Origin: Cinnamomum chago
Taxonomy: Eukaryota; Streptophyta; Magnoliopsida; Laurales; Lauraceae
Reading direction: 5' to 3'
Assembly (NCBI GenBank): GCA_038049695.1
Contig: CP142456.1
Span: forward strand, 17,326,501-17,390,500
Length of the DNA: 64,000 nucleotides
Within the stretch, counting starts at the first letter, position 1. Each line of letters starts with the position of its first letter. Positions 8,628-64,000 of the stretch are shown here, one piece after another. The notes beneath the pieces were generated by a model. The model saw only the letters and a list, made by a program, of their open reading frames with translations. It ran no database searches and had not been told where the DNA came from. Position numbers and translations under genes: made by a program.

Positions 8628-9579
8628 ATGTCAATTAAACGTGATTAAACTAGTAATTAACCACCCTAGTCCAGATTAAGCAATCAAACCACAAGAGAGA
8701 GGACACAAGGATTTATATGTGGAAAACCCTGCTCGGAAAAAAACCACGGGCCTTACTGTCTAGGCCAACAGACAACCAAGCACTAAGTAAAACTCGAAGA
8801 TTACAAGACACTTACAACCCTTCCCAGTTGTTGACTCAACCCGCTTCAGATCTTGTTGACTGCTCGTCACGAATCTTCACCGTGCTTGAACAAAGGAGTC
8901 TTCAAGAAAAGTTAAGGAATCAGACCAAGACTTGTATCATTAGCGCAACAACAGAATAGATAGCCTTGGGGCAAAACAATGGATCTCTCAAACTCTCTCA
9001 CACATGGATTTCTTCTAATTCAAAGTGGTGGTGAGAGGAGAGACAAATAGCGCTTTTCTAGAGAGTAATTAGTGTAGCAAGGGCTACTCAAAACAGGTTA
9101 CTTCCTTCAGAGAATTTAGAAAGAGGAGTTCGTCCATATTTAGAATTTCAAGGTTCGCTCGAGCGGACATGGGGTTCGCTCGAGCGGACTGCTCTCTGGA
9201 AACAAACGTTCAACGCATTGCTTCATGGGTCGAGCGAAGGTAGAGGTGCGGTCGAGCGAACAACTCTCTGTACGGGGTTCGCTCCACACTGTCTTCAAAA
9301 ACTTCATTCCAGAACTAACATCGGTCGAGCGCACATTTTGATGGGTCGAGCGAGCTAGGTTCTGTTTGGTCCGCTCGAGCGAAGGAAGGTTCGCTCGAGC
9401 GACCTTTGAAAACTTTCAGAATCCGGACTCTTTGGAAGTCTTTCTATTTTAGACTCTGGCAGTCCTTTCCTAAACTCAATACATGATTAAAGAAACCCAG
9501 TTTTGTCCAATAACCTATGAATTAGCCAACTAAAATCTTTACAAAGTGGATACATAACATGGAAATGTCATGATTGACA
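8628..9579 (-). mobile_element. Solo LTR M, probably copia-type
   Basis: On the minus strand this block starts TGTCAATC and ends TTGACA, a good inverted TG...CA pair. The 5-bp flanks gacga (8623-8627) and gatga (9580-9584) differ by one transition and are a likely target-site duplication. The distal half carries the open wording typical of plant LTR R/U5 regions (tatatgtggaaaaccctg on the plus strand). No primer-binding site or coding part adjoins it, hence solo LTR. It carries an array of GCTCGAGC-type palindromes (listed separately). Confidence 0.7.
9153..9404. repeat. Palindrome array with CGCTCGAGCG core in LTR M
   Basis: About nine copies of a motif: four complete palindromes (cgctcgagcg) and several half-sites (ggtcgagcga, ggttcgctcc) spaced 15 to 60 bp in the 5' half of the LTR. 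Comparable arrays with other cores occur in the LTRs at 26.1, 29.7, 42.3, 48.3 and 63.1 kb. Confidence 0.85.
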
Positions 9580-9893
9580 GATGATTGATATCAGATTCGT
9601 GACTAGAAGTTCAATGACCTCTATTATAATTTGAATTTTGATGGTTTTCATGATATTCTAGTTTATTATTGAAAAACAACTTGCTTTATTGCTTTCTGTA
9701 TCCACACAGTTATGTGTTGCATGATCTTAAATAGCTGGGATGGTTGTGAGATTATCAAAGTAATATGGTGAAGTGGTTACATAGGTTGTATGGACACAGT
9801 ACAATTGCAGCAAATAGATAATTGAAAGCGAGGGAAAGATAATATATGAGAATTGTAATGTTGATGTGAACATAGATTTCTTATCACGCCAAC

Positions 9894-10077
9894 TCAAGCA
9901 TGACGGTCCATTAAGTACGGTGAGCTTTGCCTGAAGAGAATCAAATCTTGAGGAGATGAGAGGCTTTATGAAGATGTCCGCTACCTTGCCATCAGTAGCA
10001 ACATATCGTACATCAAGCTGACAATTGGAGACAAGATAGTGAATGAAGTGAATGTCAACTTGAACATTTTTGCTCTG
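9894..10077 (-). pseudogene. Ty1/copia RNase H C-terminal remnant
   Basis: The minus-strand frame reads KNVQVDIHFIHYLV, then LDVRYVATDGKVADIF and KPL, the conserved end of the copia RNase H region, where the host-like consensus is HIEVDxHFVR...ADxFTKPL. The next residues resemble the usual ending before the stop and 3' LTR. Only about 60 residues of a pol protein of over 1000 are present, and no adjoining complete LTR was found. LTR M does not belong to it, since M has its own duplication. Confidence 0.75.
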
Positions 10078-10689
10078 GCCATGAACCCACACAGTCCAGT
10101 CCATAGAGTCTATCTTTAATTTTCCCTTTGAGGAACGCTTGTTCATTGCCCTAATCCTTAAAAGAACAAAAGGGTGGATGGAACTCAAAGAAAACATTAT
10201 TATATATCAATTGCAAACTACTGGACAAAGAGCAAATTTTGTAATATAAGATACATATAGTAGATTATTCATTTTAAAAGAATTATAGTGTGGAGAATAA
10301 AGCTACCAACATTCTTACCGGGAAGACTCTTACCATTCCCAATGTGTACTTCATCTAGGGTCCAGGGTGATCAACAAACGAAGCTAAAATTAGGAGAATC
10401 TTCTTGTGTGTTCTCATTCAGCTCACAATCTTATATTAAAAAATATAGTGTTACACTTGAGTATTCTAGTCTGATGAGAGTTTATGATCTATTATCTTGT
10501 TAGGTTCGATAATACAGTTAAAGTATTGTAACAAAAATACAAGCCTCATGTGATTATGGGTCAACTCATAGACCCCCGTATCTTAAGCCCAATGCCAATC
10601 TGATCCAACCCTAGGCTCATTCAGTCTAACTTCATATTTGTCCCTTCACCCCCCTCCCCCACCCCTTTCAAGCCCCGGATGAGCTGCAA

Positions 10690-16627: not shown

Positions 16628-17303
16628 TGTGACACCCCGACCCACCTTAATTTCAATTAATAGTTAGTTAATTAAGCTTAGTTGCTTAATGGATGTTTTG
16701 ACTGTATTTGGGCTTGTTTAGGTAGATTTAGTTGGGTTTGACCATTGACTAGGTAGATTATGACTTTTTGGAGTGTTTTGGATTTTAGGCGTGTCTTTAG
16801 ATTTTTGGGGGTTTTGGGTGCACTGCAAAAAGCATCTCATGGACTTTAATTCTTGCGTTTGGACCCAGCCCATTTGGACCAAACTTGACCCATTTCTAGC
16901 CCAAATTCAATTAAAAGCCCTTATTCCAAATTTCATTTAACCACCTGGGCTTGCATGCAACCCAGCCAGAAATCTTCCTCTTAAAACCCCATTGTCTCTC
17001 ATCTCTATTCCCTTCATTTCACTTCAGTTGAGAGCTCTTCTCTTCTTTTTCTCCTCTCAATCTCTTGCTACAAGCTTCAAGGCGGAGGGTTGCATGTGTG
17101 AAATCCAGCCACCATTTCACTTTCTTCATCTTCTCTAACCAAGCTATCATCTCCTTCAAGTTATCAGCTCTCTCTTCTTCCAAACTCCACCAAATTTGTC
17201 ACTAAAGGCTTTGCATGTGAGGTTTCTCAAGCACATCTCCATCTCCTTCCTCTCCTACATCATCCTCAAGGTCCCAATCTTGGCTAATTACCTCCATCCT
17301 CTT

Positions 17304-17515
17304 TGACGCAGCGCAGGGGAGAAGGAGTATGGCCAACGGGCTAAACTCCAAGCCAATGGCTTAGGGATCGGGATCCATGGCATCCAAAACGTCTTGGTCT
17401 CACACCACAGACAAATAACCAAGAGAATTTCTTAGGAGAAGAAATTTTATTAATCAATGCATTGTCCGTAAAGAGGAATTACAATCCTTTATATAGACTC
17501 ATACTCTAACCTATT
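17304..17515 (-). repeat. Element D, 3' LTR, first piece
   Basis: Aligns with 25183-25394 at about 93 percent identity by eye; starts tgacgcagcgcagggg where the other copy has tgacgtagcacagggg. Ends at the ctatt duplicated by element E. Confidence 0.85.
17511..17515. repeat. Target-site duplication CTATT of copia E, left
   Basis: ctatt precedes TGTTGTGATC and recurs at 22326-22330 after the other end of E. Confidence 0.93.
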
Positions 17516-17829
17516 TGTTGTGATCTAGGGCCTACGAGAAAAGATCAATCACGCAGAGAAGAACACAAAGATTTACGTTGGTCGGCTTTTGGCCTACATC
17601 CACGGGAAAGACGAGAGAATACACTATGCAATCAGAAGAGGTTGTACATCATAGAGACTCTTAGCCTCTATTTATAATATCAGCCCCAAAACCCTATTAC
17701 ACCCAAACACTACGTCTTAATCACAGTGGACCTATAACAGGCTTACGTCTAATCACAGTACAACTTGGGCAATCCAAGGGCCCGGTTAACCAAGATTAAT
17801 TTACTTCTATTGAGCCATACAAATTAACA
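17516..17829 (-). repeat. Copia E 3' LTR
   Basis: 314 bp, pairs with 22012-22325. Contains ttatataat/tttataatat-type TATA sequence and the segment cggcttttggcctac common to plant copia R regions. Confidence 0.93.
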
Positions 17830-17845
17830 AATCTCCACATTGGCG
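17830..17845 (-). other. Copia E polypurine tract
   Basis: The minus strand reads GCCAATGTGGAGATT directly before the 3' LTR, the standard plus-strand primer of Tork-type copia elements. F has CCAAGGTGGAGATT at the same place. Confidence 0.85.
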
Positions 17846-17909
17846 AACATTGAAGCTGGTCCTCATGCACAAAACACGTCTCACCATCCTCACCTGCCAC
17901 TTAGGGCAC

Positions 17910-18180
17910 TCAAGTACTAAGCACACCGATCAAGTCCAAGCAATGCTTGAACTTGAATTTAACGCATTCCTTCATGAATGCACCAAATCGCTTGTACCAC
18001 TGTCCAGAAGCTTGCTTTGACCAGTACAATGATTTCTTCAAACTGCATATATGATCAGGAACCTTAAACTGTACTCTACCTGCACTGGAAGCTCCTTCCT
18101 TTTCCTCGTAGAATCGCTTGCATACGATGGGTTGATTTTCCTCATCAAGAGACTCCATCTCTTCAGTCATAGTTGTTGCC
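17910..18180 (-). pseudogene. Copia E reverse-transcriptase remnant
   Basis: About 86 residues that join two distant parts of RT. MESLDEENQPIVCKRFYEEKEG corresponds to the start of the RT domain (ESLxxNxxW...CKWVYKxKxG). It passes directly into KKSLYWSKQASGQWYKRFGAFM, which belongs near the end of the palm (KSLYGLKQAPRQWYKRFDxFM). The fingers, the YVDD catalytic block and RNase H are absent. F carries the same join in the same frame, so the deletion is older than either insertion. The protein cannot polymerise DNA. Confidence 0.88.
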
Positions 18181-18218
18181 TATTGACTATTTTTCAGCCC
18201 TTCCATTAATTCAAGAGA

Positions 18219-19640
18219 CTAAGTCGTCAATGCGTATGCAACCATATCATCGCGGCCACTGTCTAATGTCGACGCGTACGTCGTCATATCCTCGAAACCG
18301 TATCTAACCGGCGGTTTCCTTTCTCTCTGCGATCTACCCGTCTGCGACATCTGAGGCTCTGTCCGCTGCATCTGCTGCACAATCTGACTATCCCTTATTT
18401 CCCAAGAGGAGCCAGATGCACTCTCCTTCCTCACTACGATGTCGAACTCCACCTGAACGATGTCACTGCTGCTATCTACTTTTGTCTCATCCACCTGCTT
18501 TCTCCATTCTAGTAAAGCATCCTCATGAAATGTAACATCCCTGCTGATGATAAATCGGGGTGAATCTTGATTAGTACACCACAACCTGTATCCTTTCACC
18601 CCAGAAGCATATCCCACCAAGATGCACTTCATAACCATTAGTTCTAACTTATCGGTTTTGACACGAGCATAAGCCGAACAACCGAAGATACTCAAGTTAG
18701 AATAATCAGCTGGATTACCTAACCAAATTTCTTCTTGCGTTTTGCAACCTATCTTTGTGTGTGGAGACCTAACTATCAAGTAGCTTACAACATTTATTGC
18801 CTCAGCCCAAAAGTCCTTGGACAATCCTGCAGTTAACAACATACAACGAGCTCTTTCCAAGATCGTTCTGTTCATCCTTTTTGCAACTCCATTCTGCTGT
18901 GGAGTTTTTGTAGTGGTGTAGTGCCAAACTATGCCATGATCTTTGCAATAGTTCTCAAACTCTATTGTTCTGTACTCCTTGCCATTACCTATCCTCAACT
19001 TCTTCACCTTCCTACCAATCTGTTTCTCAACCATTTCCTTCCATCGCTTGAATTTAACAAAGGTCTGATCCTTCGTCTTCAGAGTATAAACCCAGACTTT
19101 TCTTGAATAATCATCAATAAAAGTCAGCATAAACCGAGACCCTCCCTTGGAGTAAACCTTAGAAGGCCCCCATACATCTGAATGAACATAATCAAGGATA
19201 CCTTTCGTGCGATGAATACTTGTCTTGAAACTGACCTTTCGATGCTTTCCAAAGATGCATCTTTCACAGAAATCCAACTCGTCTATCTTTGTGCCACATA
19301 ACAAATTCCGATTGCTCAGTATTGTCAATCCCTTCTCACTCATGTGAACCAGGCGCAAATGCCATAAGCGTGTTAAGACAGATTCATGGTCATCTGAGAA
19401 AGACATTGCAGCTCCACCTGTAACAGTATTTCCAGACAAAACATATAAGTTTCCAACTCTATTGCCTCTCATAAGAATCAGAGCACCCTTCACAACCCTC
19501 ATAACTCCACCTTCAGCTGAGAACTTACAACCATCGGAGTCCAAGGCACCAAGAAAAATAAGATTCTTTTTCAAATCAGGAACATGCTGAACTTCTGCCA
19601 ACGTTCTGACGATTCCATCATGCATCTTGATTTTCACTTT
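18219..19640 (-). pseudogene. Copia E protease end, GAG-pre-integrase and integrase
   Basis: An open frame of 472 codons. In order: a post-protease stretch (DGCKFSAEGG), the zinc-binding HHCC region (LWHLRLVH ... CERC), the first catalytic Asp (VHSDVWGP), the RNase H-like fold, a C-terminal piece (FGCSAYARVK, CILVGYASGVKGYRLW, SRDVTFHED) and a variable tail. The second catalytic Asp, normally in TDNGGEY, is Gly (IGNGKEY). The catalytic Glu, normally in NGVAERMNRT, is Lys (NGVAKRMNRT). The frame is otherwise intact, but strand transfer activity is not expected. Upstream a TAG (about 19657) interrupts the join with gag-protease. Confidence 0.92.
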
Positions 19641-19655
19641 TCCAATTCCAACCGT

Positions 19656-20600
19656 CTAACATGCAACATTATTGCCCATCAAGACACTACGACGGTCGAT
19701 TTCTCTATAAGTGGTAAACCAATCCCTATTGGGACACATGTGGTAGGAACAAACCGAATCAAGAATCCATTCATCCTGAAGACAAATTCCATTTTCAATC
19801 ACAAAAAGTGCATTATGGAAAACATAATCTGATCTTTCATCTGCAACACTGACTGAATTATTAGATGACGAATCTTCTATTATTTCTTTCCCTTTCCTCT
19901 GCCTTTCGGGACAGTTTTTTTTTCTGATGTGCCATTTCTTATGGCAATAATAACATTCAATGTTTTTCTTGTTAGATCTATGTCTGCCCTTACTACTGTA
20001 GTCTTTTATTCTTCCTCGTACTACCAAACCCTCACCCGAACCATCATTGTCAACCACAACCTTTTTCTTTAACTCCTTAGAGTTCAAGGCTGCCTCTACA
20101 TCCTCTTTGGACAAAGTATTCTCTACAATACATCATGGAATCAATAAAATGCTCATATGAGGGTGGTAATGAGCACAACAACATAATAGCTTGGTCCTCA
20201 TCATCAATTTCAACATTGATATTTTCCAGATCCATGATAGCTTTTGTGAAAAAATCAAGGTGAGTTGAAATAGACGTACCTTCCTGCATTTGTAAGGTGA
20301 ACAACCGCTTCTTAAAATACAAGCGATTCGTGAGAGACTTCGTGATGTATAAGTTTTCCAACTTCTGCCATATGCCAGCAGCAGTTTTTTTTTCTGAGCA
20401 ACCTTTCGCAGTACACCATTGCTCAGAAGCAGCAGAATCTGACCGAATGCCTTCTCCAACAACTCATCATTCTCATCATCTGAAAATTTCTCAGACAAAC
20501 CATTATTTCCCTTCAAAGCTTTATGTAACCCATTCCGAACCAGCAAAGCATGCATCTTCAGACGCCAAAGACAAAAGTCGTTGTTTCCATTGAATTTTTC
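19656..20600 (-). pseudogene. Copia E gag and protease, frameshifted
   Basis: Gag (UBN2 type) starts near NDFCLWRLKMHALLVRNGL and continues, after a frameshift at an A-run near 20385, as [35 protein letters not shown] second break near 20110 leads to the zinc knuckle [15 protein letters not shown], whose spacing is CX2CX4HX5C instead of CX2CX4HX4C; the extra Lys comes from a longer A-run. The protease motif is [12 protein letters not shown]: the Gly of the usual DSG is Val. The capsid-like protein would pack the RNA and the protease would process Gag-Pol, but neither is intact here. Confidence 0.88.
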
Positions 20601-20636
20601 AATTTCAAATTTCGTAGCCCTTCCATAAATCTTTTA

Positions 20637-20923
20637 GGGCGTGTTTCGCACTTAACTAAGTTAAAGTGAAGTGAAGTGAATCCAGACAAGAATTGACAAG
20701 GGTCATATCAAAAGTACACAATTTCAACATTCCCTCCATCTTTTAAAAATAAAGTCAAAAAAGCAACCTCCTTTGTCCACTAAAAGATAAAAAAACTCCA
20801 CTTTTCTATACAAAAAGTCAAAGATTCTATGCCAAACAACTAAAAAAAAACATCATAATAACACCTTATATTTTATTCTTTTTTGATTTGATGCTTCACC
20901 TCACCATACATCCAAACAGGCCC
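20637..20923. mobile_element. Tourist-like MITE in copia E
   Basis: A 287-bp AT-rich insertion flanked by TTA (20634-20636 and 20924-20926). Its ends are GGGCGTGTTTCGC and, inverted, GGGCCTGTTTGG, the PIF/Harbinger-type terminus. Its inverted sequence aligns with the MITE at 36994-37254 (gtttggNatNgaatctttNacttttgtatag; tttttttatcttttagtgg). It lies in the leader just upstream of gag. Confidence 0.85.
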
Positions 20924-20929
20924 TTATAG

Positions 20930-22000
20930 TACTTGTGTAGATCTGGTCACCACGAGCACACCGGAAGAAAATGATCTGAAATCCAACTCTAGATGGCTAA
21001 AATATCACAGAAAAAGGTTTATGCACTCCAATCAGTCAATCTCCTTCATTGATTGTTGAACAACCAATCTTCTTCCACAATAGCGTAGATCCGCTCGCAA
21101 CGAGTCCATAGGTTCAAACGGTTCTCCGATCAGACCCCGAATCGACAAGATATCGCGAAAACAAACTTCAGCCATTGGTTTGGTCAAAACTGCCTTTGAC
21201 CGTACGGATCTACTGACGTCAGCGCTTAGGTCGGCACCTTTCTGCCTCTACTTTGCTTCTGGGCTTCATAAATGGGTCAAGTCAACCTGAACCTTGGCCT
21301 GGCCTGGAACTAACCTTTCTTCCTCTTCTCCCTTCTACAACAGGAACCCAAAAGACCAAGGGCTTCCCCTCTTCCAGTCTTCTTCTTCTTCCATGGCAAC
21401 AGCGCAGGTAGCAGTGACGTCCGACCGTTTCCTCTGGTGAACGCCCTCTTCTCCGGCAACCGGAAGAACAGCACGATGGCGGCTGCAATCTGCAAACAGA
21501 GAACTTTGTTGTCCCTCTTCTTCTTCCGTTTATGGGTTCTACAACAAGAACAGAGAGGCAGCAGCACCATCGGCATTGAGAGAGTAAGCTAGAACCCAAG
21601 CGCAAGTCTCCTCTCCTTTCTCTGACGAGGCTCTGTTTCATAACCCACTCCCTTCTGCAAGTCTTCTTCGATCTGATCAGAGAGAGCCCTTCTCCAATTC
21701 TGGTCAACAAGAATAAACCAGATTCCTCTCGCTTCTTCTTCCCAAGCCTGGACTCGACTCCTCCCTACTGCACCGAACTCAGAGTTTGTCCTTCAAATCC
21801 GGCGACGATCGGTGATCAAATCTGATGCTGCAAATCGTTCCAGAACCAGGCTACGATCTATTCTCTTCTCTTTTCACGCCCTCTGCACGATCTAGAAAAC
21901 ACTATCTCAATCTTGAGATCTAATCTATCGATCACGCAGCCACAACTCTAGCCCTCTGAGATCCGATCCATCGAATCTCCTCCGATCCCACGCAACTCTC
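20930..22000 (-). other. Copia E untranslated leader
   Basis: Between primer-binding site and gag. It has no conserved ORF; the frames at 21282-21710 are low-complexity. It contains cgagtccataggttcaaac and the region around ctgacgtcagcg, which are also found on both sides of the Pack-MULE at 37.6-39.8 kb, showing that another copia copy lies there. Confidence 0.75.
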
Positions 22001-22011
22001 TGATACCAATT
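21994..22011 (-). other. Copia E primer-binding site
   Basis: Directly after the 5' LTR end (ACAACA) the minus strand reads AATTGGTATCAGAG, complementary to the 3' end of plant initiator tRNA-Met. Confidence 0.9.
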
Positions 22012-22325
22012 TGTTGTGATCTAGGGCCTACAAAAAGAGATCGATCATGCAGAAAAGAACACAGAAATTTACGTAGTTCGGCTTTTGGCCTACGTCCACG
22101 GGGAAGACGAGAGAATTCACTATGCAATCAGAAGAGGTTGTACATCATAGAGACGCTTAGCCTCTATTTATAGTACCAGCCACAAAACCCTATTACACCA
22201 AAACACTACTACTTAATCACAATAGACCTATAACAGGCTTACTTCTAATCACAGTACAACTTGGGCAATCCAGGGGCCCGGTTAACCAAGATTAATTAAC
22301 TTCTATTGAGCCGTACAAATTAACA
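22012..22325 (-). repeat. Copia E 5' LTR
   Basis: 314 bp, same length as the 3' LTR, 26 mismatches by eye. Followed by the ctatt duplication at 22326-22330. Confidence 0.93.
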
Positions 22326-22330
22326 CTATT

Positions 22331-22488
22331 CTTGGAAACAACTCTAATTAAAATAAGCACTAAATCAAATAAGAGAAACTTTCTAATTAATCTCCCAATT
22401 ATTTTCAAAATCCAGCTAATACTAAAATTAAGACTCTTGCATGATTTGAAGATCTTTTTATGGGCTTGGGCCCAATGGTCTGCCAGAT
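22331..22488 (-). repeat. Element D, 3' LTR, second piece
   Basis: Continues 17515 without loss after removal of E and one ctatt. Aligns with 25400-25552 with about seven mismatches. Adjoins the (CCT)n polypurine tract of D. Confidence 0.85.
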
Positions 22489-22959
22489 CCTCAGTCCCCC
22501 CTCCTCCTCCTCCTCCTCCTCCTCTTGGAGGGAACTCGTCCTCGAGTTCAGTAGATGACCGCCTGGGTCGAAGATCAAACGCACAAACTTTCGATTCTCT
22601 TGTAGATCCTCATATGGTGTGTAAGCTTCACTTAAGCGTTTACTCTAGGAAAATTTTAGATATTGCCTCTTTTGATGGCGGGACTTTGCATGGACTCGTG
22701 CTCGAACAAATTGATACGTCGATTTTTGAATTTGTACCATCTACTCACAATCTTCTGATATCAACAATCGATTCTTGAAGATGAAATCAATTGGGGAACC
22801 TTAATGATCTGCTCTTCCTTTTCAACCTTTGAAACAATAGCCTGTTCTTTTGATGATTTAATTAGCTCTTCAGGAATTGGACATGATGAAATCCACCAAT
22901 TGATCAGGCTCCTGGTTGACTACATTCAATTCTTCAAAGTCTGCCTTTTCTTCCTTCGT

Positions 22960-23660
22960 TGCTTATACTTCTTGATCATCAATTTCTTTGTCTTCCAATG
23001 TAGCTAAAATAGGATCCGGTGGAGGAGTTTTGTCAATCACAACATCTGAATTTGTTGGGAAATCATTTGTTTCTTCCTTTTGTTCTTCAACATCAGCTTT
23101 GATAATCTCCGTGACTAGTTCCACCATAGGGACTTTGGTGGTTTGCAGAGACTTTTCTTTTTGCATCTTAGCTTTTTGGAGGCGATAGCGTTTGATCGAG
23201 TGTTCGACACAGATCGCTTCCCAAAATGCCTCGTGCTTATATTTGCATTCTTTCTTCATATTTTTCAATATGCTCGGACGCAAACCTTTGAGAAACTTAT
23301 GGAAATCAAGTGTCTTGCCCAAGTCACATAAATAGTGTAGCCTTTCAATTTCATTGGCATATTGTTCGACGGCCAACTTTTCCTTGTGTCAAACTAAGAT
23401 ACTGTGCAAAATGGCCAATGGGCTTCAAATTGGCTTCCACTGGTGGGGAGAATGGATCTCTTCCATGTACATACTTGTCCTCTAATAGTAATTTCATTTC
23501 ATTCCATGTCGGTGGATATTGACACAACCGGCATTTTGCTTCTTTCCACCACCTTTGTGCATCTCCTAGAAGCTTTCTTTTGGCATAATCTTTACATGAA
23601 TGACCTTTTAATTGACACCATGTAAAATACACTTCAAGTACTTTAATCCAATTCAAGAAG
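22960..23660 (-). pseudogene. Element D gag (Ty3/gypsy type), frameshifted
   Basis: The first frame (complement of 23351-23656) has the retrotransposon gag signature KVLEVYFTWCQLKGH, YAKRKLLGDAQRWW and YPPTWNEMK..LEDKYV. The second (22963-23376) continues with AVEQYANEIERLHYLC and FLKGLRPSI, then runs into an acidic, low-complexity tail ending before the polypurine tract. The two overlap in different frames near 23360, so one frameshift breaks the gene. There is no zinc knuckle and no pol. In a functional copy this would be the nucleocapsid-like shell protein in which element RNA is reverse-transcribed by a helper. Confidence 0.82.
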
Positions 23661-23669
23661 ACATATGGA

Positions 23670-25170: not shown

Positions 25171-25182
25171 CTAATACCAATT
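25171..25182 (-). other. Element D primer-binding site (variant)
   Basis: The minus strand reads GCTACGTCA (LTR end), A, then TTGGTATTAGAG, one or two changes from the initiator-Met primer site. Confidence 0.7.
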
Positions 25183-25553
25183 GACGTAGCACAGGGGAGA
25201 AGTAGTATAGTCAATAGGCTAAACTCCAAGCCAATGGCTTAGGGATAGGGATCCATGGGATCCAAAACGTCTTGGTCTCACTCCACAGACAAATAACCAA
25301 AAGAATTTCTCAGGAGAAGAAATTTTATTAATCAATGCATTGTCCCTAAAGAGGAATTACAATCTTTTATATAAACTCATACTCTAACCTATTCTTGGAA
25401 ACAACTCTAATCAAAATAAGCACTAAATCAAATAAGAGAAACTTTCTAATTAATCTCCCGATTATTTTTAAAATCCAGCTAATACTAAAAATAAAACTCT
25501 TGCATGATTTGAAGATCTTTTTATGGGCTTGGGCCCAATGGACTGCCAGACCA
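25183..25553 (-). repeat. Element D 5' LTR
   Basis: About 370 bp, uninterrupted, TGGTCTGGCAG...GCTACGTCA on the minus strand. Short LTRs with a gag-only interior fit the TR-GAG layout. Confidence 0.85.
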
Positions 25554-26077
25554 AGGATTTGGTATGCATCACTCTTTGTAAGTAAGTCTCCCTTTCCCAA
25601 TGAAAGCTAAAATAGTTGCATGCATGCTAATTCTAATCTTCTTTACTCAACCACCATTGTAGAGATCTCTTCTTGAGCTTTCATTTGGGGGTTTCATTGT
25701 TTTGAGCTTTCTTTGAGTGGGCATAGCTTGGATTTGTGATTATTAGCTTTAAGCACCTTCAGAAAAGTAAAACAATTTACAGCTTGTGCATGCACCTTCA
25801 TTTCTTTTGATTCTCGTCATGATTCATGTGTTAGAGACCCCATTTTCAGCTCAATACTTAGTTTGATTTCAATTTGTTAATGGGCTCTTGTAAATGTATG
25901 AAATGGGTGTGGTTTGATATATTTTGGTCAAGAGAATGGATGTGTATGTTTAGAGAGCATTGGTGGCTCATCTTGCAAGTTTTTGAACATTGGAATGGGC
26001 TACAAATGGTTGTATAGGAAGCCAAGAGGGGCAGAACAGTCCCTGTCAGAGCCCCATGAACTTTGGCAGCAAGCACC

Positions 26078-26174
26078 CTCGCTCTAGCGAGATTCCAGCT
26101 CGCTCTAGCAAGAAAGGGAGCTGCCTGGCAGAGAGCACTCTCGCTCTAGCGAGCTCCCATCTCGCTATAGCGAG
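26078..26174. repeat. Palindrome array with CGCTCTAGCG core in LTR A
   Basis: Four copies: ctcgctctagcgag (26078-26091), ctcgctctagcaag, ctcgctctagcgag and ctcgctatagcgag (26161-26174). It is followed by the conserved segment ggccataacttttgatccg found after the arrays of LTRs B and C. Confidence 0.88.
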
Positions 26175-27885
26175 ATGGCCCATTGGGCCCGGCAAGCCAA
26201 ACTTCAAAATGGCCATAACTTTTGATCCGTATGTCCGATTTTGGTGTTCTTTATATCGCTAGAAAGCTCTTGAAGCATAGAATTCAATGGACCATATATC
26301 TTATAAATGAGAGGTCTAGGAATAAAGGAGATATTTGAATTTAAAAATCTTGGCAACCGGAGTGTACCGCGAGCCAAGTGAAGAATCATAGGATGCTTAG
26401 ATGGTTTTAGCCCAATAGGTGGGCTTTAAGGATGGATCCCTTGAACCATAAATCATGCCTAATTGAATTTTAATTCATGTGGGTGAGGTGTGAGCAACCA
26501 TACACCCACAAAGGACATCGTGAATCTTCGTATTTGTAATCTGAACCAAATGTGTTATACTAAGGGATTCGGCGTCCAAATTAAGTAACACCAAGGGTTC
26601 CTTTGTAGCCCAATAACATCGGAATCCTTAGTACTACACCGAGTTGGACGGTGAAGACCACGAGTGTTCCAAGACCGTAGTCTTGGTTTGATTCATATTT
26701 TGATTCCGTATATGATCTATATGAAAGTATTTGCATTCTGTTTCTAGTATTCTTGTATGACTTGATCATACTTCTATTTAATTCATGTTTATCTTGTTTT
26801 GCACTTGCTTATGTCCATAGTCATTCTTATGATAAGTTTCGATTATGTACCACAAGATATGATTTGTTTCTCTACTATGTTCTATTATTTTTGTACACTC
26901 CATTCCACGAGTCGACACCACTTGGCTTCGACCCTATCTAAGTCGGACCTGACTAAGTGTGGGTTTAGTTATATTTCTGGCCCTCTGCAGATGAGATTAT
27001 GTTCTGAGGGTTGACCAGCAGACCAGCACCCTAGGTCCACGACGGAGAGTTTCAGGCCCACTGTCTCCTAGTAGCACCACCTTGTTTTGTTCTGTATTCT
27101 ACTCTCACTTATTATTCATGTTTACATGATTTATTTGGGATAATTTAGCTAATGTGGATGTGCCATCTAGTTTTGTTATTTAGGTGTATCCATCATTTAT
27201 GATTCGTAAGTCTCATACTTATTCATGCACAGACTTGCCTAGTGTTCACACTTTGACCTCTTATGATCTATATATGTCCAGGTACTCATTTGCCACATGT
27301 TACATTATATATTTTATTTATCTTGCTTAGCCTAGTCTAATGGTGCTACACTTGTTGTTACAGGTGAGGACCTCGATTGCATTGCCCCGGACGCTGAGGA
27401 GGAACAAGAAACTCCCTAGTAATTAGCTAAGTGGACTTTTGATGATGTCCAGTAGACATCACTTGCGTTGAGCATTCGTGGAAGTCACTTAACCCTAGAT
27501 TTATGGCCTTGATGGTCATGATGATTAGTTGTTTAGATTTGCATTTCCTTGGGTACTTAACCTTAACTACTCTTTTCTTTTCTTTAACTTGAACTTGAAC
27601 TAAAGCATTCACTCTATGGACTGTTTGTGCCATTGATTATGATTCAAATATGACATGGTTGGTGAATATAAATGGATGCCAGTTGGGTTAATTATACATG
27701 ATAGATTTATACAGGTTCACAGGAAATTGAAAGGTACCCTTAATGTGATGGGTTTATGACCTCACACGTGAAATCCTGTGGGAATCCTGTTCGTGGGGAA
27801 AATTTTTAGCAAGTCTAACTCAAATCCCCATGCAGGCGTACGTCGCCCCTTGGAATGGGTGAAATCTCGGGTTCAGGGCATGGCA

Positions 27886-29012: not shown

Positions 29013-29664
29013 TAAAGGTTTCTCTAAGAAGGTATCTTCACAAAAGATCACTCTAAGAGATACAATTTAAGCACAATGTATTTGCCTCTAAAATAGGCTA
29101 ATATGAAAGTGAATAACAAATTACAAACATACACTAAAACAAGCTAAAGTGTGTGCACAAGTGTATGAATGCTTTACTTCAATCAATTTCTACAATGAAG
29201 CTCCTAAATGAATGCTTGATGCATTTTAAAATCAAAGCTTAGAAAATGATGATTGAAGATAAAACTAATCACATAAAAGATTCAAACAACTTTGAAGAAA
29301 TGAACTAAACAAGTTGTATGAATATTTAAAGTCTAAGAATGCATGTGATTTAGTTAAGAGAGTTTGCAAACCAATCTTATTTACCAAAGATGATTTTGAG
29401 TTTGCTAAACATCTCTAGAAATCATGCATAAGTGAAAATACAAAGATTTAAGCATGCATGGATTTCATTTTAATGGAAATCAAAATACTAGTAAGATGTA
29501 CCTTTTAAAAACTTAAGCATTTGATATCCAAAAAGCCCTCTAGCCTTTCCAACTTCTTCCCCTTTCTTTGGCTCCAAAATGGTCTCAAAAGTTCATGAAT
29601 CAAGCCTCTTGAAAGATGGAAAAAGAGTGGACTTTATAATGAAAAACAGTCCAACGGCTAGTCC

Positions 29665-29828
29665 CAGGTCGACCTGGCAAAAGAGGGGGGGGGGGGGGGG
29701 GGGGGTCGACCTGCCCTATACAACGGCTCAATTTCTGACCGTTGGAGCTTCAGGAACCAGTCAACCTGCAGTGTGGCAGGTCGACCCGGGTCCCTGGCCA
29801 GGTCGACCTGCCACACTGCAGGTTGACC
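29665..29828. repeat. Palindrome array with GGTCGACC core and G21 run in LTR K
   Basis: Four copies of the motif aggtcgacctgNc or variants, with a 21-base G run inserted after the first. An inverted pair (caacggct ... gaccgttg) lies in the middle, as it does beside the array of LTR L. Confidence 0.85.
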
Positions 29829-41951: not shown

Positions 41952-43518
41952 TGTTAGGGTTTTCATTAGTTTGCAATTTGATTGGATGTATTCATTTTAG
42001 TTTAGCTTGAACTCTCATGCACTCATACTTCTTGAAATATTGGGATCTTCATGCATTGTAAGTTTTTAATCTTAGCATCAAAAGATTTTGTAAAAGCATG
42101 CACAAACATGTTTTAAATTGCACTTTAAAAACTCCTTTCTTCAAACATTTTAGCCTCTAGTCGAGCCTAGTTCTCCAAGACCAAGTTTCCCTTTATTTCA
42201 TCTTTAAAAGTCATTTTTAAAACAGGGAAAGTTCTGTCAACCGAACCTTGTTAGGTCAGCTATCGGTTCCGTATCCAGACTGTAAAAACTGTTATATCAG
42301 GGAACCTTGGTCAGTTGTCGGTCAGGTGTTGGTCAAATGTCGGTGACCGAACTTCAGTTTGGTGAACCGACAACTGTACAACGGTCCGCATATTTCAAAT
42401 TTTATGACCGTTGGGATTTGACCTTTGAGTTCGGTCGGCCAACAATAGATCCGTTTGAGACATTTTTTCCTTATAAAAAGAATCCTTCGTTGAGACTTGT
42501 ACCAACACTTTTGAGACTTTGGAGGGCCAAGGAAGGTGGGACATCCATGCTAGGTTATAAGGAAGTTAGGAGAGCAAATCAGTCATTTCAAACCTTTGAT
42601 TCTTCAATGGGTTTGCACTTCTTAAGTTATTTTATTCTTGCTTTTCTTTAAATCTTTGATTTCTTCAAATGACATGATTAAAGTATTCAAAGTGTTCAAA
42701 TGTTGAGTGTTTAAACATGCTTTGATTTTTAAATATGTTTATCATTTTAACTTCATCATTTGAATATGATTTCACATGTTAGTCATTTAATGTTTCTTTC
42801 AAACTTGCTAGTTTTATGTTAAAATTTCCAAAACAAATTTTTCATTATTTCAAAAACATGTGTTGAATCTTTTAAGTTACTCTATCTCACATTTGCATCA
42901 TTTATGAGCATTGAATTTGAAAAGAGATAGAAATAGGTTTTAAAGCATATGTATCATTTATTGATATTTGCGTTTACCATGCATATGTCTTAGATATAAT
43001 TACCTTTCATATCAGCCTAAGTTAAGAGGCATTTATATGTATTCACTTGCATCTCATCTTATGCTTGTTTAGGCATAGTTTATTGAGATAAAATCATGTT
43101 GTAAAAGTTAATGCTTAGCCTATTGAAAAGCATATGAGATCGAATAAATTAATTCTAGCCTTGTGTAAAAAACATTTGTGGTTGTAAGGTTGGAGGTTAG
43201 CTTAAACCTTAAATTGATAGTGAAAATACTGGTAAGGATACCCGAAGTGGATGTAGGCTTGTTTGGCCGAACCACCATAAATTTGCTTGTTATGGTGATT
43301 GATGATTGATTGTGTGGATGTACTTATGAGCAATGTTTCTTTTTCAATGTCAATATTGAATGATGTTATAGATTCTTTACTTATTTCACTTATAATTAAG
43401 ATATTGAATCTACAAAGCATGATTGACATAGGATTAAAAAGAATTGTTTTAGGTTTTTGAGTTCATCGTATTCAAAACGAAACCCCCCCTCCCCCCAAGT
43501 TTTGGTTCTGGATTTTCA
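41952..43518 (+). mobile_element. Solo LTR L, 1567 bp, same family as K
   Basis: Starts TGTTAGGG and ends GGATTTTCA; shares with K (opposite strand) the starts, gcaatttgat, the ggttcggcc segment and the C-run near the end. A perfect ggaag duplication and no internal sequence make it a solo LTR inserted in LINE G. Confidence 0.88.
42236..42444. repeat. Degenerate palindrome array (GGTTCGG/CCGAAC type) in LTR L
   Basis: Repeated ccgaac, cggttcc, gtcggtcag, cggtgaccg and ggtgaaccg strings at the place where K has GGTCGACC arrays, beside an inverted pair acaacggtc ... gaccgttgg. The motif differs from K although the LTRs are related. Confidence 0.65.
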
Positions 43519-46146: not shown

Positions 46147-46218
46147 TGTCACGCCCCGAGCCCGAGACTGCACCCATCTCGAGGCGTGACAAACGCCCGC
46201 ATGGGGACTCGAGTCAAA

Positions 46219-46428
46219 CTCATTTTGTCTTACTAGCTGCGTAGACATAGCTTGTAGAATGTCTCTCAACCCTCCATCACCACCCAGAGGCGGTGGAGGT
46301 GGTGGTGGCAATTCTTCCTCTTTAACACGTTCATTCCCTACACCTTGAAGCTCAACAAAGAGAGTGCCCTCCGAATTTTGACTACTACTTGAGCCATTTC
46401 GTACGTTAGTAGCCCGACGAGGAGGCAT
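46219..46428 (-). pseudogene. Gypsy C gag, N-terminal 70 codons
   Basis: Starts MPPRRATNVRNG, the usual Tekay/CRM-type gag start (ATG at complement of 46426-46428), then a Gly/Glu/Pro-rich linker with seven Pro and GGLRDILQAMSTQLVRQNE. The frame then enters the 3' LTR. The longer upstream start at 46485 lies in the leader and is not preferred, because MPPRR is the conserved start. Confidence 0.85.
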
Positions 46429-46571
46429 TTTCTGAAAAACAATTGGGTTAGCACAGACAATTAAACAAACCCTATGAAAACCCAAAAGAATTAGTACACC
46501 TAAACGTCCTATCGTGTCTTCACATCGTGCCCTAAAGTTCTAAGTATTTTAAAACTCTTAGAACAACATAT

Positions 46572-46583
46572 GCTCTGATACCA
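46572..46583 (-). other. Gypsy C primer-binding site
   Basis: The minus strand reads TGGTATCAGAGC, 9 bp after the LTR end: an exact initiator tRNA-Met primer site. Confidence 0.93.
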
Positions 46584-46592
46584 ACTTACGTA

Positions 46593-49413
46593 TGTCACGC
46601 CCCGAGCCCGAGACTGCACCCATCTCGAGGCGCAGCAAACGTCCGCATGGGGATTCGAGTCAAACTCGATGACCCTTGTCCCCACGAACGGAATTCACCC
46701 ACAGGATTTCACGTGTGAGGTTTCAAATTTTCTATTCACCTATATAATTTCTGTCAAATAGATATCAAATCGTAATCCAACAACATCAAATGCATCAAGA
46801 TATAGAGCATAAGGTTCATGAGCATAGATTAAAGGTTCAAGTTTAAGTTCAAGAGATAGAAAGAGAAAGGAAGTACGTTAAGTTAATGTTTACAAGCCAT
46901 AGTCTAAACAAGTTTATAAACTATAACAAAAGATGTGGCAATCCAAGCCACAGTCCATGGGTCATTTTGCGTTCAATCTCAATGAGTAGATGTCTAGAAG
47001 ACATCATCAGAAGTCCATTCAGCTACGTAACAGGGAGATTCCTCCTCATCGTGGATATCGGGGTCAGTGGCATCGAGGTAGTCACCTGTAACGCCAAGTG
47101 CAGCACCATTAGACTAAGCTAAGCAAGATAAACATATATAAATCATATAACATGTAACAAATGAAATTTTTAGACAGATATAAATCACAGGAGGTCAAAG
47201 AATAATTACTAGGCAAATCGGAGCAAGAATAAGCATGAGACGTATGGATCAAAATTTTACAGGTATACACAATAACAGAACTAAATGGCACATCCACATT
47301 AGCTAAATTCTTTCAAATTAACCATGTAAACATGTATGTAAAGTGAGAGCAGAATACAGAACAGAACAGGGTGGTGCCACTAGGGGACAGAGGCCCAAAA
47401 CTCCCCATTGTGGACCTAGGGTGCTGGTCAACCCTTAGAATATAATCCCATCTGCAGAGGGCCAGAAGTATATACTAAACCCACACTTAGCCGGGTTCGA
47501 CTTAGATAGGGTCGAAGCCAAGTGGTGCCGACTCGCGGAATAAAAGTACAAATTAACAGAACATATACAGAACATATCATATCATAACTTAGAACTTATC
47601 AAGATGTAACGGATCAGAAGTAGAAACAGATATAATATAAACAAGTACATAAGAAAGATATACATAGCTAGACAGAAGTATGATCAAGTCATACGAGAGT
47701 ACTGGAAACGGAATGCAATGCATGAACATAAATCATAGACAAAATTAAGATATGAAACAAGCCAATCCTACGGTCTTGGGAACTCTCGGGGTCTTCACCG
47801 TCCAACTCAGTATAGTACTAAGGATTTCGGTGTTAGTGGCGTACAAAAAAACCCTTGACGTTACATAATTTGGGCACCGAATCCCTCAGTATAACACATT
47901 TGGTTCGGATCTCAATTTCGAAGAACACGAGGTCCCTTGTGGGTGCACGGTTGCTCAAACCGCATCCACATAATATACAAGTCCATTGGTCATGATAAAA
48001 TGTTCAAGGTATCCATCCTTAAGGTCCAACTATCAGGCCAATTAATCTAAACATACTACGGTTCAACGCTTGGCTCACGGTACCATCCGAAAGCCATAGT
48101 TTTTACTAAAATCCAATATCCACTTATTCCCTGAATTTCAAATCAATTATATGTATAGACCATTGGATTCTACACTTCAAGAGCTTTCTAACGATATGTG
48201 GAACTCCAAAAACAGACGTACATTTAAAAAGTTATGGCCATTTGAAGTTCTTACTATTGGGCCCAATGGGCCCATCCGCTCGAGCGGGCCAACACGCGCT
48301 CGAGCGGACAGTCCAGCACGCCCAAACAGCAAGCACAAGCGCTAGAGCGGGCAGTGCAGACTTCTGAATCCAAAATTTGGCTTTTCCTGTCCTCTTCCAA
48401 CCCATCCATTGCCTACTCCCAGCCTTCAAACAACATTGATACACAAAGATGAGCCTCCAAACATGCTCATAAACATCACCATTCAACCACATTTAAATTA
48501 ACAAAAGATCAATCCATTTAATATCAAAACATGTACAAAATTCATTTTTGAGCAGGGAAATGGGTGTCTAACATGATTGAACATATTCAAAGGATCAAAT
48601 AAAGAAGCATGCATACAATTATATAAGTTTAACTTGCCTTAAGGTGCTTAAATTCGAATCCTACACCAAATCAATCCCTCCTAGCAAAGTCAAGCTCTCC
48701 AAAGTAAAAACCCCAAAATGTAAGATCAAGAAGCAACCTAAAATGATGGAATGAGGGAGAAGAAGATGCATGCATGAGTTGTAACACCATCTCACTGATT
48801 TGAAGCAAAAGCAAGGGAAAGAATGAGAAATACTTACCAATGAAGAAGATGAAGCACACTTAAATGAAATGGAGACTTGGAGAAGATGGATAAGAAGATG
48901 AGGATGAAGATAGAGTCCACAAATCTCACATGCAAGGTCACTAACCATTCAATCTTGAGAAGCTCTTGGAAAAGAGATGAAGTAATAGAGAGGTAAGGAA
49001 GAGGATACTCAGCTGCAACTGAAGGGAGATCCGTTTGAAATGAGGAGAAAGAGGTTTTGAGTTGGGATTTCCTATAGTTGCATGCAAGTCCAGTAAGGGA
49101 CTGAAATTTTCAAAAAGGGACTTAGGTTGGAAAAATGGGCTAGAAATGGGTCAAGATGGATCCGAATCCATTGGGTCAAAACATGAAAATATATCAAAGC
49201 CCATGCTATGCTTTATGCAATGCTCTAAAAATCCATAAAATTCTAAATACACACAAAAGCCGAAAACACTCCAAAAGTCATAGTCTACCTAGTCCATGGT
49301 CAAACCCAACTAATTCTACCTAATCAAGCCCAATTACATTCGAAACATCCATCAAGCTACTAATCTAAGTTAATTAACTCTAAATCAGAATTAAGGTGGG
49401 TCGGTGAGTTACA
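46593..49413 (-). repeat. Gypsy C 5' LTR, 2821 bp
   Basis: Aligns along its length with A and B. Its last 72 bp match 46147-46218 with about four differences. Confidence 0.9.
48276..48350. repeat. Palindrome array with CGCTCGAGCG core in LTR C
   Basis: ccgctcgagcgg (48276-48287), gcgctcgagcgg (48296-48307) and gcgctagagcgg (48339-48350), at the place matching 26078-26174 in A. Confidence 0.87.
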
Positions 49414-60815: not shown

Positions 60816-60821
60816 ACATCT

Positions 60822-61992
60822 TGTCACGTCTCCCGAACCCGATTAGAGAATAAACCGGATCTAGGGGCTAATTAAAAATATTCACCCTTTAAACCAAAGA
60901 TCGTAAGTCCGCTGTGGGGATGATATAATTGAAAACTCATTCCAAAATACAACATGCGGAATTATTCATAAATCACTTCATAATTAATACCAAAGCAAAT
61001 GAAACTAATTCTCATTAATATTAAAGTCAACTCAATAGCAAATGAAGGCTAGACAAGATCATATTAATTATGTCTTAATTACAAATGGTCGTGGCAAACC
61101 TAGACCATTTTAAAACATATGAATCAATAAATAGAAAGGTTCAAGCCATGAATAATAAATGAATAAAGACAATTCTAATAGATTCCCATGTAAGTCTCTC
61201 TCGTGGTGGGAGTGATGATGCTACTCTACGTCATCGGCACACCGCCCTCGCTCCTCCTCTGCCCTCACCTACCGGCTCCTCATAGCAGTCACCTAGGGTC
61301 TCTACACACCAAGGAATAGAACCAACGACATGTTGAGCAAGAATAAATAGTAAATAATAACAATGTATATCATGTATCAAAATGAGAGTATAGACAAGTA
61401 TAATCATGTGAATACAAGGTAAAAGAATGAGGCATATAGAATGAGAATAAAACAGGAATCAACAACGATAAAGTCCTAGCAACATCTAGCAATAAACACC
61501 ATCCACACACATGCAAGATGCAAGAATCAAGAAGGAGACTCTGAGGGTGTCCAAGCCACCTCCTGGGGTACCAGTAGCAATCATATCCAGATCACTGATA
61601 CCAAAGTCCGACTCTAGGGGGATCCAAGCTCCCAGTCCTAGGAATAACAGCACAGTCCAAGCCCACTGCTAGCATTTCAATGCCATGGACGCCGTCCAAG
61701 TCGATTGCCCATCCCGATGTCTGAGTAACCGTCCCTTCGAAACAACCGTCAAACTGCAGTTGGTCATGATATGCAATCCTCCCCACAGTGGGTCCTACGT
61801 ACTGTGGTCGGATGATAAATAGTGAAGTGGTGTTAACACGAGGATGCCAAGACAAGAAGGTCTAGCTAGTCAAGATGCACGACCAAGATCAGGGGATTAT
61901 CTCATTCAAGCCAAGTTGCAAGACAAGTCTATACCAATTGATAATCCCTTACATTCTAGCCATCATGTTTATCAAGTATAAAACACAAGGGT
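60822..61992 (-). mobile_element. Ty3/gypsy-type LTR H, partial, interrupted by LTR B
   Basis: On the minus strand it ends CGGGTTCGGGAGACGTGACA, resembling the ends of LTRs A and C (CGGGCTCGGGGCGTGACA). Its other end is not reached before LTR B starts at 61993. No coding sequence. The 88-codon frame at 61592-61855 is LTR sequence. Confidence 0.6.
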
Positions 61993-64000
61993 TGTAAGAC
62001 CTCGACCCACCTTAATTTCGCTTTAGAGTTAATTAACCTAGATTAGTAGCTCAATGGATGTTTAATTTGCATGTAATTGGGCTTGATTAGGTAGTATTAC
62101 TTGGGTTTGACTATTGACTAGGTAGGTTATCACTTTTGGAGTGTTTTGGGTTTTGTGTGTGTGTTTTAGATTTTTTCGGATTTTTGGGTTCATTGCATAG
62201 TGCATATCTAAGGTTTTAACTCTTATGTTTTGACCCAATTTTTTTGGACCCAAACTGACCGAAATTCGAATCCACCTTGGCCCAAATACCAGCAGGAAGT
62301 CCTTTTGTGAAACTTTGATCCTAAATTTGGGTTTGCATGCAAGACCCAAAAAAGTTCATTTTAAATCCTCAGCCCAGCCATTCTACTCTTCTTCTTCACT
62401 TCAACTGTAACTCTTCTTCTTCAACTCCTTTTCCCTCATTCAAAGTTCCTTCAATTAGTTGAAAGAGATCCTGCATGTGTGGAAGCCAGCCACCACTTCA
62501 TTTTCTTCATCTTCAACCATACCTTCCTTTCAAGAATTACATTCTCCTTCAAGCTCACACTTTTAATCTTCTCCATTGGTAAGTATTCACCTTCCTTTCC
62601 CTTGCTCTTGCTTCAAATCATTGAAATGATGTTACAATTCATGCATGCATCTTCTTCTCCCTCATTTCATTTCATTTCTTCATTTTAGGTTGTTTCTAGA
62701 GGTGCATTTTTGGGGATTTTGTGTTTGGAGGGCTTGGACTTGCTAGGAGAGGTTGATTTGGTGTAGGATTTGAATTTTAGCACCAAGGCAAGTTAAACTC
62801 ATATGATTGTATGCATGCTTCTTCAATTGATTCTATAAATATGCTTCTTCTTGTTAGATACCCATTTCCTTGCTCAAAAATGGATTTTGTTCATGTTTTT
62901 TATGTAAGAATTGGATTGCTTTCTTGTTGATTTAATGTTGGTTTATTGGGGATGTTATGAGCATGTTTGGAGGCTCATTTTATACATCAAATGTTGATTG
63001 AAGGTTGTGAATAGGCAATGGTTGGTTTTGGAAGAGAACAGGGAAGTGCATTATTCGGATTAGAATCTTGCACTGCTCGCTCGAGCGCGTGATTGCTCGC
63101 TCGAGCTCGCATGACCTCTAGTTGGGTCCGCTCGAGCGCTCGAGTGCATGTTTGTCCGCTCGAGCGCACCTAATATATGGAATTTTATGTCAACTTCCAA
63201 TGGCCATATCCTTTTAATCATACGTCCGTTTTTGGAGGTTCACATATCGATGGAAAGCTCTTGAAGAGTAGAATTCAATGGTCCCAACATATATTTGATT
63301 TGAAATTCGGGGAATAAGTGGATATTGGATTTTATATTAATCTTAGCAACCGGATGGTACTGCGAGCCAAGCGTTGAATCGTAGTATGTTAGATTGCTTT
63401 GGCCTGATAGTTGGACTTTAAGATTGGATCCCTTGAACCCTTTATCATGCCCAATGGAATTGTGATTTAAGTGGATGCGGCTGGAGCAACCGTGCACCCA
63501 CAAGGGGCCTCATGTTCTTTGAAATTGAGATCAGAACCAAATGTGTTATACTAAGGGATTCAGTGCCCAAATTAAGTAACGCCAAGGGTTCTTTTTTAGG
63601 CCAATAACACTGGAACCCTTAGTACTACACCGAGTTGGACGGTGAAGACCCTGAGCATTCCCAAGACCGTAGGATTAGCTTGCTTCATAACTTGATTCCG
63701 TTTATGATTTATGTACATGATTGCATTCCGTTCCAGTACTCTCGTATGACTTGATCATACTTCTGTCTAGTTATGTATATCTTGCTTATGTACCTGTTTA
63801 TATAATATCTGTTTCCGCTTATGATCAGTTACATCTTGATAAGTTCTGAATTATGTACCATGATATGATCTGTTCTGTATATGTTCTGTTAATTTGTACT
63901 TTTATTCTGTAAGTCGGCACCACTTGGCCTCGACCCTAGCTAAGTCTGACTTGGCTAAGTGTGGGTTTAGTATATATTTCTGGCCCTCTTTAGATGAGAT
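61993..64000 (+). mobile_element. Ty3/gypsy LTR B, cut by the window end
   Basis: Starts TGTAAGACCTCGACCCACC and aligns with A and C throughout: gactattgactaggtagg, the palindrome array, ccaaatgtgttatactaa, and tgacttgatcatacttctg. About 2.0 kb of an expected 2.8-3.0 kb is present. Whether it is solo or part of a full element cannot be seen here. Confidence 0.88.
63075..63168. repeat. Palindrome array with CGCTCGAGCG core in LTR B
   Basis: gctcgctcgagcgc (63075-63088), gctcgctcgagctcgc, ccgctcgagcgctcgag and ccgctcgagcgc (63157-63168), followed by the conserved ggccatatccttttaatcat segment. Confidence 0.88.

Follow-up and report, generated by a model that had tools for sequence, protein, structure and literature searches.

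Helically spaced palindrome arrays in long terminal repeats of Cinnamomum chago retrotransposons: candidate enhancer cassettes

Palindrome arrays in the window

The window analysed here, a stretch of 64,000 nucleotides from Cinnamomum chago (assembly GCA_038049695.1, contig CP142456.1, positions 17,326,501 to 17,390,500 of the forward strand), contains six arrays of short, mostly palindromic words, designated M, A, K, L, C and B in their order along the window (Table 1). A first-pass annotation, made from the letters alone, had described all six as clusters of perfect palindromes in long terminal repeats (LTRs) of retrotransposons, the type in L being degenerate. Exact matches to its words were found at the expected positions in M, C, B, K and A, and clusters of perfect palindromes are indeed present in M, B, C and K, but not in A and L. 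The word of array A, CGCTCTAGCG, consists of arms CGCT and AGCG around a non-palindromic CT, and a scan for pairs of identical palindromic 10-mers revealed no clustered exact palindrome in L, which carries degenerate half-sites. Array C had been called mixed; its third site, CGCTAGAGCG on the + strand, is A's word CGCTCTAGCG when read in the direction of C's LTR.

The same scan detected 10 pairs of identical palindromic 10-mers at most 250 bp apart in the window, whereas 50 dinucleotide-shuffled versions averaged 0.06 pairs and never contained more than 1. Seven of these pairs lie in M, B, C and K, and the other three are formed by TGGAATTCCA at 35843-36030, in an element resembling a miniature inverted-repeat transposable element. 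The palindrome arrays of the window are real and far above chance. The element with the TGGAATTCCA pairs (35825-36110) has inverted ends GGGCCTGTTCACTTACTAGAATTCC and many internal GGAATTCC words, and is itself a case of a palindrome cluster in a DNA transposon. Array K holds a run of 21 G at 29685-29705, which continues into a GGTCGACC site.

Table 1. Arrays, host elements and associated features, in window coordinates (PBS, primer binding site)
Feature	Position	Strand	Description
M array	9153..9404	-	CGCTCGAGCG four times, at 9156, 9177, 9372 and 9392; GGTCGAGCG-type variants
LTR A, 5' part	16628..17302	+	Assigned to a Ty3/Gypsy family; cut by nested insertion ~17303-25550
LTR A, remainder	25551..27885	+	Both ends approximate
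A cassette island (approximate)	25893..26204	+	Limits as in the comparison with L035
A array	26078..26174	+	CGCTCTAGCG at 26080 and 26142; CGCTCTAGCA at 26101; CGCTATAGCG at 26163; two pairs, 21 bp each
Conserved block just 3' of A array	26211..26244	+	Begins GGCCATAACTTTTGATCCG; 1-7 mismatches in 23/23 family members compared
TATAAA of K	29633..29638	-	28 bp downstream of last palindrome, in LTR direction
K array	29665..29828	-	GGTCGACC at 29667, 29704, 29779 and 29801; two of them inside CAGGTCGACCTG
Inverted repeat within K array	29760-29827		
L array	42236..42444	+	Degenerate half-sites CCGAAC, GTTCGG, GTCGG
TATAAA of L	42472..42477	+	31 bp past degenerate site GGTCGGCC
Element C	46147..49413	-	5' LTR 49413-46593 (2.8 kb), PBS ~46583, ~360 bp internal, last 75 bp of 3' LTR
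C array	48276..48350	-	CGCTCGAGCG at 48277 and 48297 (20 bp apart); one CGCTCTAGCG in LTR direction
LTR B	61993..64000	+	Cut by window end
B array	63075..63168	+	CGCTCGAGCG at 63078, 63129 and 63157; one GCTCGAGC; overlapping GCTCGAG

Spacing, symmetry and position of the sites

Close pairs of sites, defined by a gap of 0-30 bp, were counted throughout the 1.06 Gb assembly (14 contigs); these whole-genome pairs include many copies of the same families and are not independent. The word CGCTCGAGCG forms 11,348 close pairs and its reversed control none, GGTCGACC forms 36,642 (control, 52), and GGTTGACC forms 1,294 on each strand (controls, 19 and 12). When the inner six positions were left free (TTCGn6CGAA), 714 pairs were found versus 17 in the control.

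Neighbouring sites mostly lie two or three helical turns apart. Among the first 50 matches listed for CGCTCGAGCG, which contain 39 distinct spacers, the start-to-start spacing is only 19-22 or 31-32 bp. Genome-wide, a mere 107 of the 11,348 CGCTCGAGCG pairs (0.9%) are spaced at 23-30 bp, versus the 26% expected from 8 of 31 possible spacings, and 33 of the 50 listed within this range are at 30 bp. Similar preferences were obtained for the other motifs, again among the matches listed: 43 GGTCGACC pairs are at 19-23 bp and 7 elsewhere (16, 24, 25 and 32 bp); of 99 GGTTGACC pairs, 95 are at 20-23 bp and 4 at 12 bp; and 27 of 34 distinct TTCGn6CGAA pairs are at 20 or 22 bp. In the set with CA, CC or CT cores (CH-core set), 68 of the 86 distinct listed pairs are at 20-22 bp and none at 23-28 bp.

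The uniformity of cores within an array, as claimed in the first-pass annotation, was borne out. In the 86 distinct CH-core pairs, CT-CT and CC-CC combinations together number 11 versus 4.0 after shuffling (p ~0.0008). The covariation set, in which 50 listed + strand rows of TTCGn6CGAA were folded to 34 distinct pairs, comprises 26 pairs assigned to the CTCGAG group and 8 to the GCTAGC/GTTAAC/GTTGAC group. No pair combines the two groups, though a CTCGAG/GTCGAC hybrid site occurs in two. The annotation had further proposed that the two halves of a site covary. In agreement with this, inner positions 1-6, 2-5 and 3-4 are complementary in 55, 60 and 53 of the 68 sites of this set, versus 35.6, 54.9 and 39.0 after shuffling. 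Base counts show a symmetric preference in the half-sites, and the fixed flanking positions show a base preference with little excess pairing beyond the core. Arrays of CGCTCGAGCG also contain, repeatedly, a related longer site, GGTCGAGCGACC, one half of which resembles the K type and the other the M type (L007, L015 and others; such numbers denote LTR stretches elsewhere in the genome).

In 7/7 members of the K/L group examined, 28-31 bp separate the end of the last site from a downstream TATA box, and this distance is kept whether the last site is GGTCGACC, GGTTGACC or L's degenerate GGTCGGCC. In K (29650-29661), L, L046, L047, L055, L057 and L061, the last palindrome and TATA have a AGCCGTTGG-like block between them. 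The AACGG in this block resembles the MSA element of mitotic genes, a likeness that would suggest expression in dividing cells.

Host families, cassette replacement and sharing

A, B and C were confirmed as members of one LTR family, in agreement with the annotation. The arms of their sites are CGC-GCG; CGG-CCG is found instead in further subfamilies of this LTR. The exact junction between LTR and PBS of element C, CGTGACATACGTAAGTTGGTATCAGAG, occurs at 8 genomic places including C. Because Ty3/Gypsy gag domains follow this junction in 3/3 places read (with protease and RVT_1 in 2), the A/B/C family is, on domain matches, Ty3/Gypsy. Five LTR stretches upstream of C-type junctions were inspected. 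L070, L071 and L074 carry partly decayed C-type arrays, L070 and L071 being the LTRs of the two places with protease and RVT_1; L072 has what by eye is a weak array of another type; and L073 yielded no match to the conserved block. Element C is flanked by a 5-bp target duplication, GGACA, in a Copia fragment, and the PBS inside it rules out a solo LTR. The insertion nested in LTR A (17303-25550) has terminal repeats of ~370 bp and is itself split by a 4.8-kb Copia element with LTRs at 17509-17829 and 22005-22325.

For M, K and L, no LTR pair holding any of the three was found within the window, and their LTR or promoter context comes from relatives elsewhere in the genome, whose elements were read in part. 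The M family consists of window M and L015, L016, L018 (123 bits) and L023. L018 shows, in this order, the array, a PBS with the junction CA-ATTGG-TATCAGAGCC, Copia gag and RVT_2, and L015 contains a Copia RVT_2 frame. Judged through its relative L018, M is Ty1/Copia. The Ty1/Copia junction CA/ATTGG/TATCAGAGC is found in L018, yet it is not diagnostic, the short-LTR Copia at 22008 having nearly the same. A contrary sign is a Gypsy-type open reading frame (ORF) beside L023, which perhaps belongs to a nested element. Of the other families, numbered F1 to F5, F4 (L019, L024) has true LTR pairs with array sites in every LTR and Copia gag remnants between them, and F2 is assigned to Gypsy on the gag match (3e-14) of a single member, L017. 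The Copia gag that follows the Gypsy-family LTR L065, perhaps nested, was not used, and an assignment of L007 to Copia from nearby Copia pol was dropped, its flank being F2-like by eye.

The annotation had inferred that the copies within an element change together. This was not borne out by alignments of 13 chosen A/B/C-family pairs, in which motif types were assigned by eye and alignment breaks were used, fixed-window identities being noisy from varying array length. In 7/8 pairs whose motif types differ, both flanks align but the array between them, together with its spacers, does not. In these seven the alignment ends 230-410 bp ahead of the conserved block and picks up again between ~12 bp before and 3 bp inside it, with flank identities of 67-88% and 79-84% and a scrap of at most 30 bp in between; the eighth (L031-L035) aligns throughout at 75%. 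Where both members are of one type, the 130-190 bp adjoining the block align in 5/5 pairs, three without a break and two (L031-L034 and L040-L044) with a break further upstream. Two further families behave alike, since L007 versus L049 or L056, L013 versus L059 (apart from an extra 21-bp match) and window K versus L061 align only outside the array; window K, L046 and L047 align through it. Concerted change of the sites in place was therefore rejected for A/B/C, and the combination of misaligned arrays and aligned flanks indicates that cassettes were replaced or turned over rather than converted site by site.

The annotation had set its proposal against one in which cores simply follow the LTR phylogeny. 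They do so in part: 5'-flank identity averages 0.77 for same-type and 0.62 for different-type members, and the CT, GGTNAACC and GGCTAGCC types, as assigned by eye, fall largely together in the 5'-flank tree, but the four elements of GGCCANC type are dispersed over it and L040 is separated from the other CG-type elements.

Recurrence of the arrays across LTR families, also claimed at first pass, is supported. The accompanying statement that this is not simple inheritance holds as well, except that part of the recurrence reflects shared cassette sequence and not convergence. In a test of seven chosen between-family pairs the best matches span arrays together with spacers: L007-L015 (82 bits), L021-L022 (72), L022-L007 (69), L021-L016 (67), and L017-L007 and L006-L007 (65 each), for all of which the spacer-shuffled maxima are 39-46 bits; L005-L006 gave 67 versus 56 bits. 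On alignment evidence, some cassettes, spacers included, are common to different LTR families. By group, F1-M (67.1 bits) and F3-M (82.4) exceed their shuffled maxima of 48.2 and 46.4, and ABC-F2 is slightly over its control (44.6 versus 37.4). Sharing was rejected for ABC-M (42.8, not usefully higher than the control of 41.9) and F5-M (41.9, under the control of 45.5), and the F4-M match (73.4 versus 49.1) was discarded as cassette evidence because it falls outside the sites.

F2-M, in which a Gypsy family is compared directly with a Copia family, gave a marginal result (50.9 bits versus 47.3, the highest of 12 shuffles). As F1 matches both F2 (Gypsy) and M (Copia), at least one link should cross superfamilies. 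F1 is without a superfamily assignment, and pieces of the F5 flank recur in F2 (~490 bp, 68%) as well as in M (190-220 bp, 72-75%), both of which weaken this inference; by these alignments the families are not cleanly separated. We therefore put forward only tentatively, as a possibility we would not bet on, that within a single plant genome Ty1/Copia and Ty3/Gypsy elements draw on a common, small code of palindromic enhancer cassettes in helical phase and pass these between the superfamilies. Elements of unrelated kinds would then belong to joint regulons, each set by the dimeric protein that reads its palindrome.

Candidate function and relation to known arrays

The reading that we favour, and hold to be rather probable, is that the arrays are promoter-proximal enhancers in the U3 region of the LTR, with palindromes bound by dimeric proteins and cassettes replaced as units. 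Dimeric protein binding was among the readings offered at first pass, and is the one that the spacing and symmetry support. Each palindrome would be a predicted binding site of a dimeric sequence-specific DNA-binding protein, and spacings of two or three turns would place the bound dimers on the same side of the double helix. As judged from the base counts by eye, the main half-site types appear to follow one plan, approximately G-Y-Y-M-G-S-T-C, and consequently look like variants read by related proteins. Sites would be uniform within an element because they serve the same protein. As suggested by the breaks in homology, the array would be inherited as a cassette of ~220-410 bp and replaced as a unit, presumably by template switching during reverse transcription, and different LTR families may use the same small menu of motifs through such replacement.

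Several observations weigh against this interpretation, in which both protein binding and enhancer function are read from sequence. The genome-wide counts are swollen by the many copies of the same families. Phase is lost beyond three turns: the 50 longer-gap matches listed are at 43 bp (4), 46-54 bp (26), 62-65 bp (5) and 69-71 bp (15), the last of these not corresponding to whole turns. A TATA-like box lies 94 bp downstream of the array in only 2/5 members of the M family, L018 has a weak one at 64 bp, and none was found behind the array in L015 and the window M copy, nor in 2/2 F1 members tested. In F4 such boxes lie 108-129 bp downstream in 3/3, with 2-3 mismatches in 11, and the nearest TATA is 128 bp on in A and 630 bp on in B, with none in C. 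Finally, the arrays fold into strong predicted hairpins, and excess pairing beyond the core is seen at flanking positions 1-3 of GGTCGACC (p 0.009-0.04) and 1 and 6 of CGCTCGAGCG (p ~0.02).

These last points bear on a role at the level of RNA, in which neighbouring identical palindromes would pair in the transcript and either feed small-RNA silencing or serve dimerisation or packaging, array uniformity making the hairpins. The fold check proposed in the annotation gave z scores of -3.4 to -5.9 for pieces of M, A, B and C, -3.6 and -9.9 for K and -2.0 for L. Moreover, according to the accessible parts of PMC10760457 and PMC5311732 (citing Bousios 2016), the regulatory part of maize Sirevirus LTRs is palindrome-rich, fast-evolving and hairpin-forming, as are the arrays here, and a small-RNA hotspot, its hairpins being discussed as small-RNA targets. 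Hairpins do not, however, predict whole-turn helical spacing, and it is this phasing that points to DNA-bound proteins. In addition, GGTTGACC pairs in the same orientation (2 x 1,294, or 2,588) outnumber those in opposite, fully complementary orientation (336 + 221, or 557), an excess ill suited to selection for perfect stems, although the test is weakened by G-U pairing on one strand; in A, the CT centres all point the same way and would mismatch in a hairpin. Selection for stems beyond the core was dismissed, the excess there being only weak. We consider the RNA role rather unlikely as the explanation of the arrays. Hairpins follow from identical palindromes side by side and helical spacing does not follow from hairpins; a second function at the RNA level is conceivable.

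It seems improbable that the arrays serve to counter silencing, with an element- or host-encoded protein binding them to remove or exclude DNA methylation in the manner of VANC, and subfamilies diverging by motif change. Non-coding motif arrays do differ between related elements here, as VANC targets do between related transposable elements (Hosaka et al. 2017, PMC5735166, accessible parts), and the observed/expected ratio of CpG is higher in five arrays (0.84-1.46) than in the flanks (0.18-0.42), with K at 0.42. The VANC motifs of VANDAL elements, however, are tandem repeats in the same orientation, in DNA transposons that encode the reader themselves (accessible parts of PMC5735166), whereas the sites here are palindromic and helically spaced with many spacers. 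Among the ORFs scanned, in elements read in part, no element-encoded motif-binding protein was seen, nor any match to a DNA-binding family beyond retrotransposon and host-gene domains. Mutational turnover without function, in which tandem duplication and correction of quasi-palindromes by template switching would yield uniform perfect palindromes, is in our view very improbable. It would account for L061, where a 20-bp unit is repeated along with its spacer and for which tandem duplication is retained, and for the few sites with perfect arms of up to 22 bp in all. As a general explanation simple tandem duplication was rejected because of the many different spacers at one spacing (the 39 distinct CGCTCGAGCG spacers and 86 distinct CH-core pairs); three different motifs share that spacing, and K/L elements maintain their TATA distance whatever the motif type.

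In Tnt1-like Copia elements, U3 is known to contain activator boxes in repeated copies, which vary from one subfamily to another; compared with the arrays here, these are few in copy number, confined to one family and not known to draw on a menu common to several. A closer likeness is found in the RM boxes of Sireviruses. In its accessible parts, Bousios et al. 2010 (PMC2829016) describes these in 13 Sireviruses, 12 of them with a CGG-CCG core, as lying in CpG islands shortly upstream of a conserved TATA, with many palindromic dyads in the upstream half of the LTR that are uniform within elements and different between them. There, RM is called Sirevirus-specific by comparison within Ty1/Copia, and no common binding factor was found. 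K's word is the RM of a Vitis Sirevirus (CGGTCGACCG; PMC2829016, accessible parts). K and L share with RM boxes the close position upstream of TATA and the CGG-CCG core (GGTCGACC in K and TTCGGTTGACCGAA in L061; L itself is only degenerate). The K array, which is the part of that element read, holds 4 exact copies; for RM boxes the number is at least 8 over the whole element. M shares the Copia host junction (through L018), but its core is CGC-GCG, not CGG-CCG, and A/B/C differ in both Ty3/Gypsy host and CGC-GCG core. By sequence comparison K/L thus appear to fit RM boxes in core and TATA position and M in part, while A/B/C do not, though seemingly built alike. The Gypsy host, the CGC-GCG core, helical phasing and cassette replacement go beyond the accessible parts of Bousios et al. 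2010. In a partial literature search, neither helical phasing nor Gypsy arrays of this type came up in any title or abstract listed, and none of the 40 titles listed for the palindrome words concerned a retrotransposon; palindromes are not mentioned in the accessible part of PMC11656987.

Palindrome arrays have been on record for Sireviruses since 2010; no protein is known to read them, and transcription and small-RNA silencing are the two candidate uses. The whole-turn spacing common to different motifs provides an argument, from sequence only, for DNA-bound proteins. That whole rows of sites have apparently been replaced or shared suggests interchangeable switches for the same kind of protein. 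If cassettes move between LTR families, or between Copia and Gypsy, then retrotransposon regulation would evolve by exchange of modules and not by mutation alone, and, if true, the many genomic copies would carry complete enhancers of a known type into positions from which they could serve genes.

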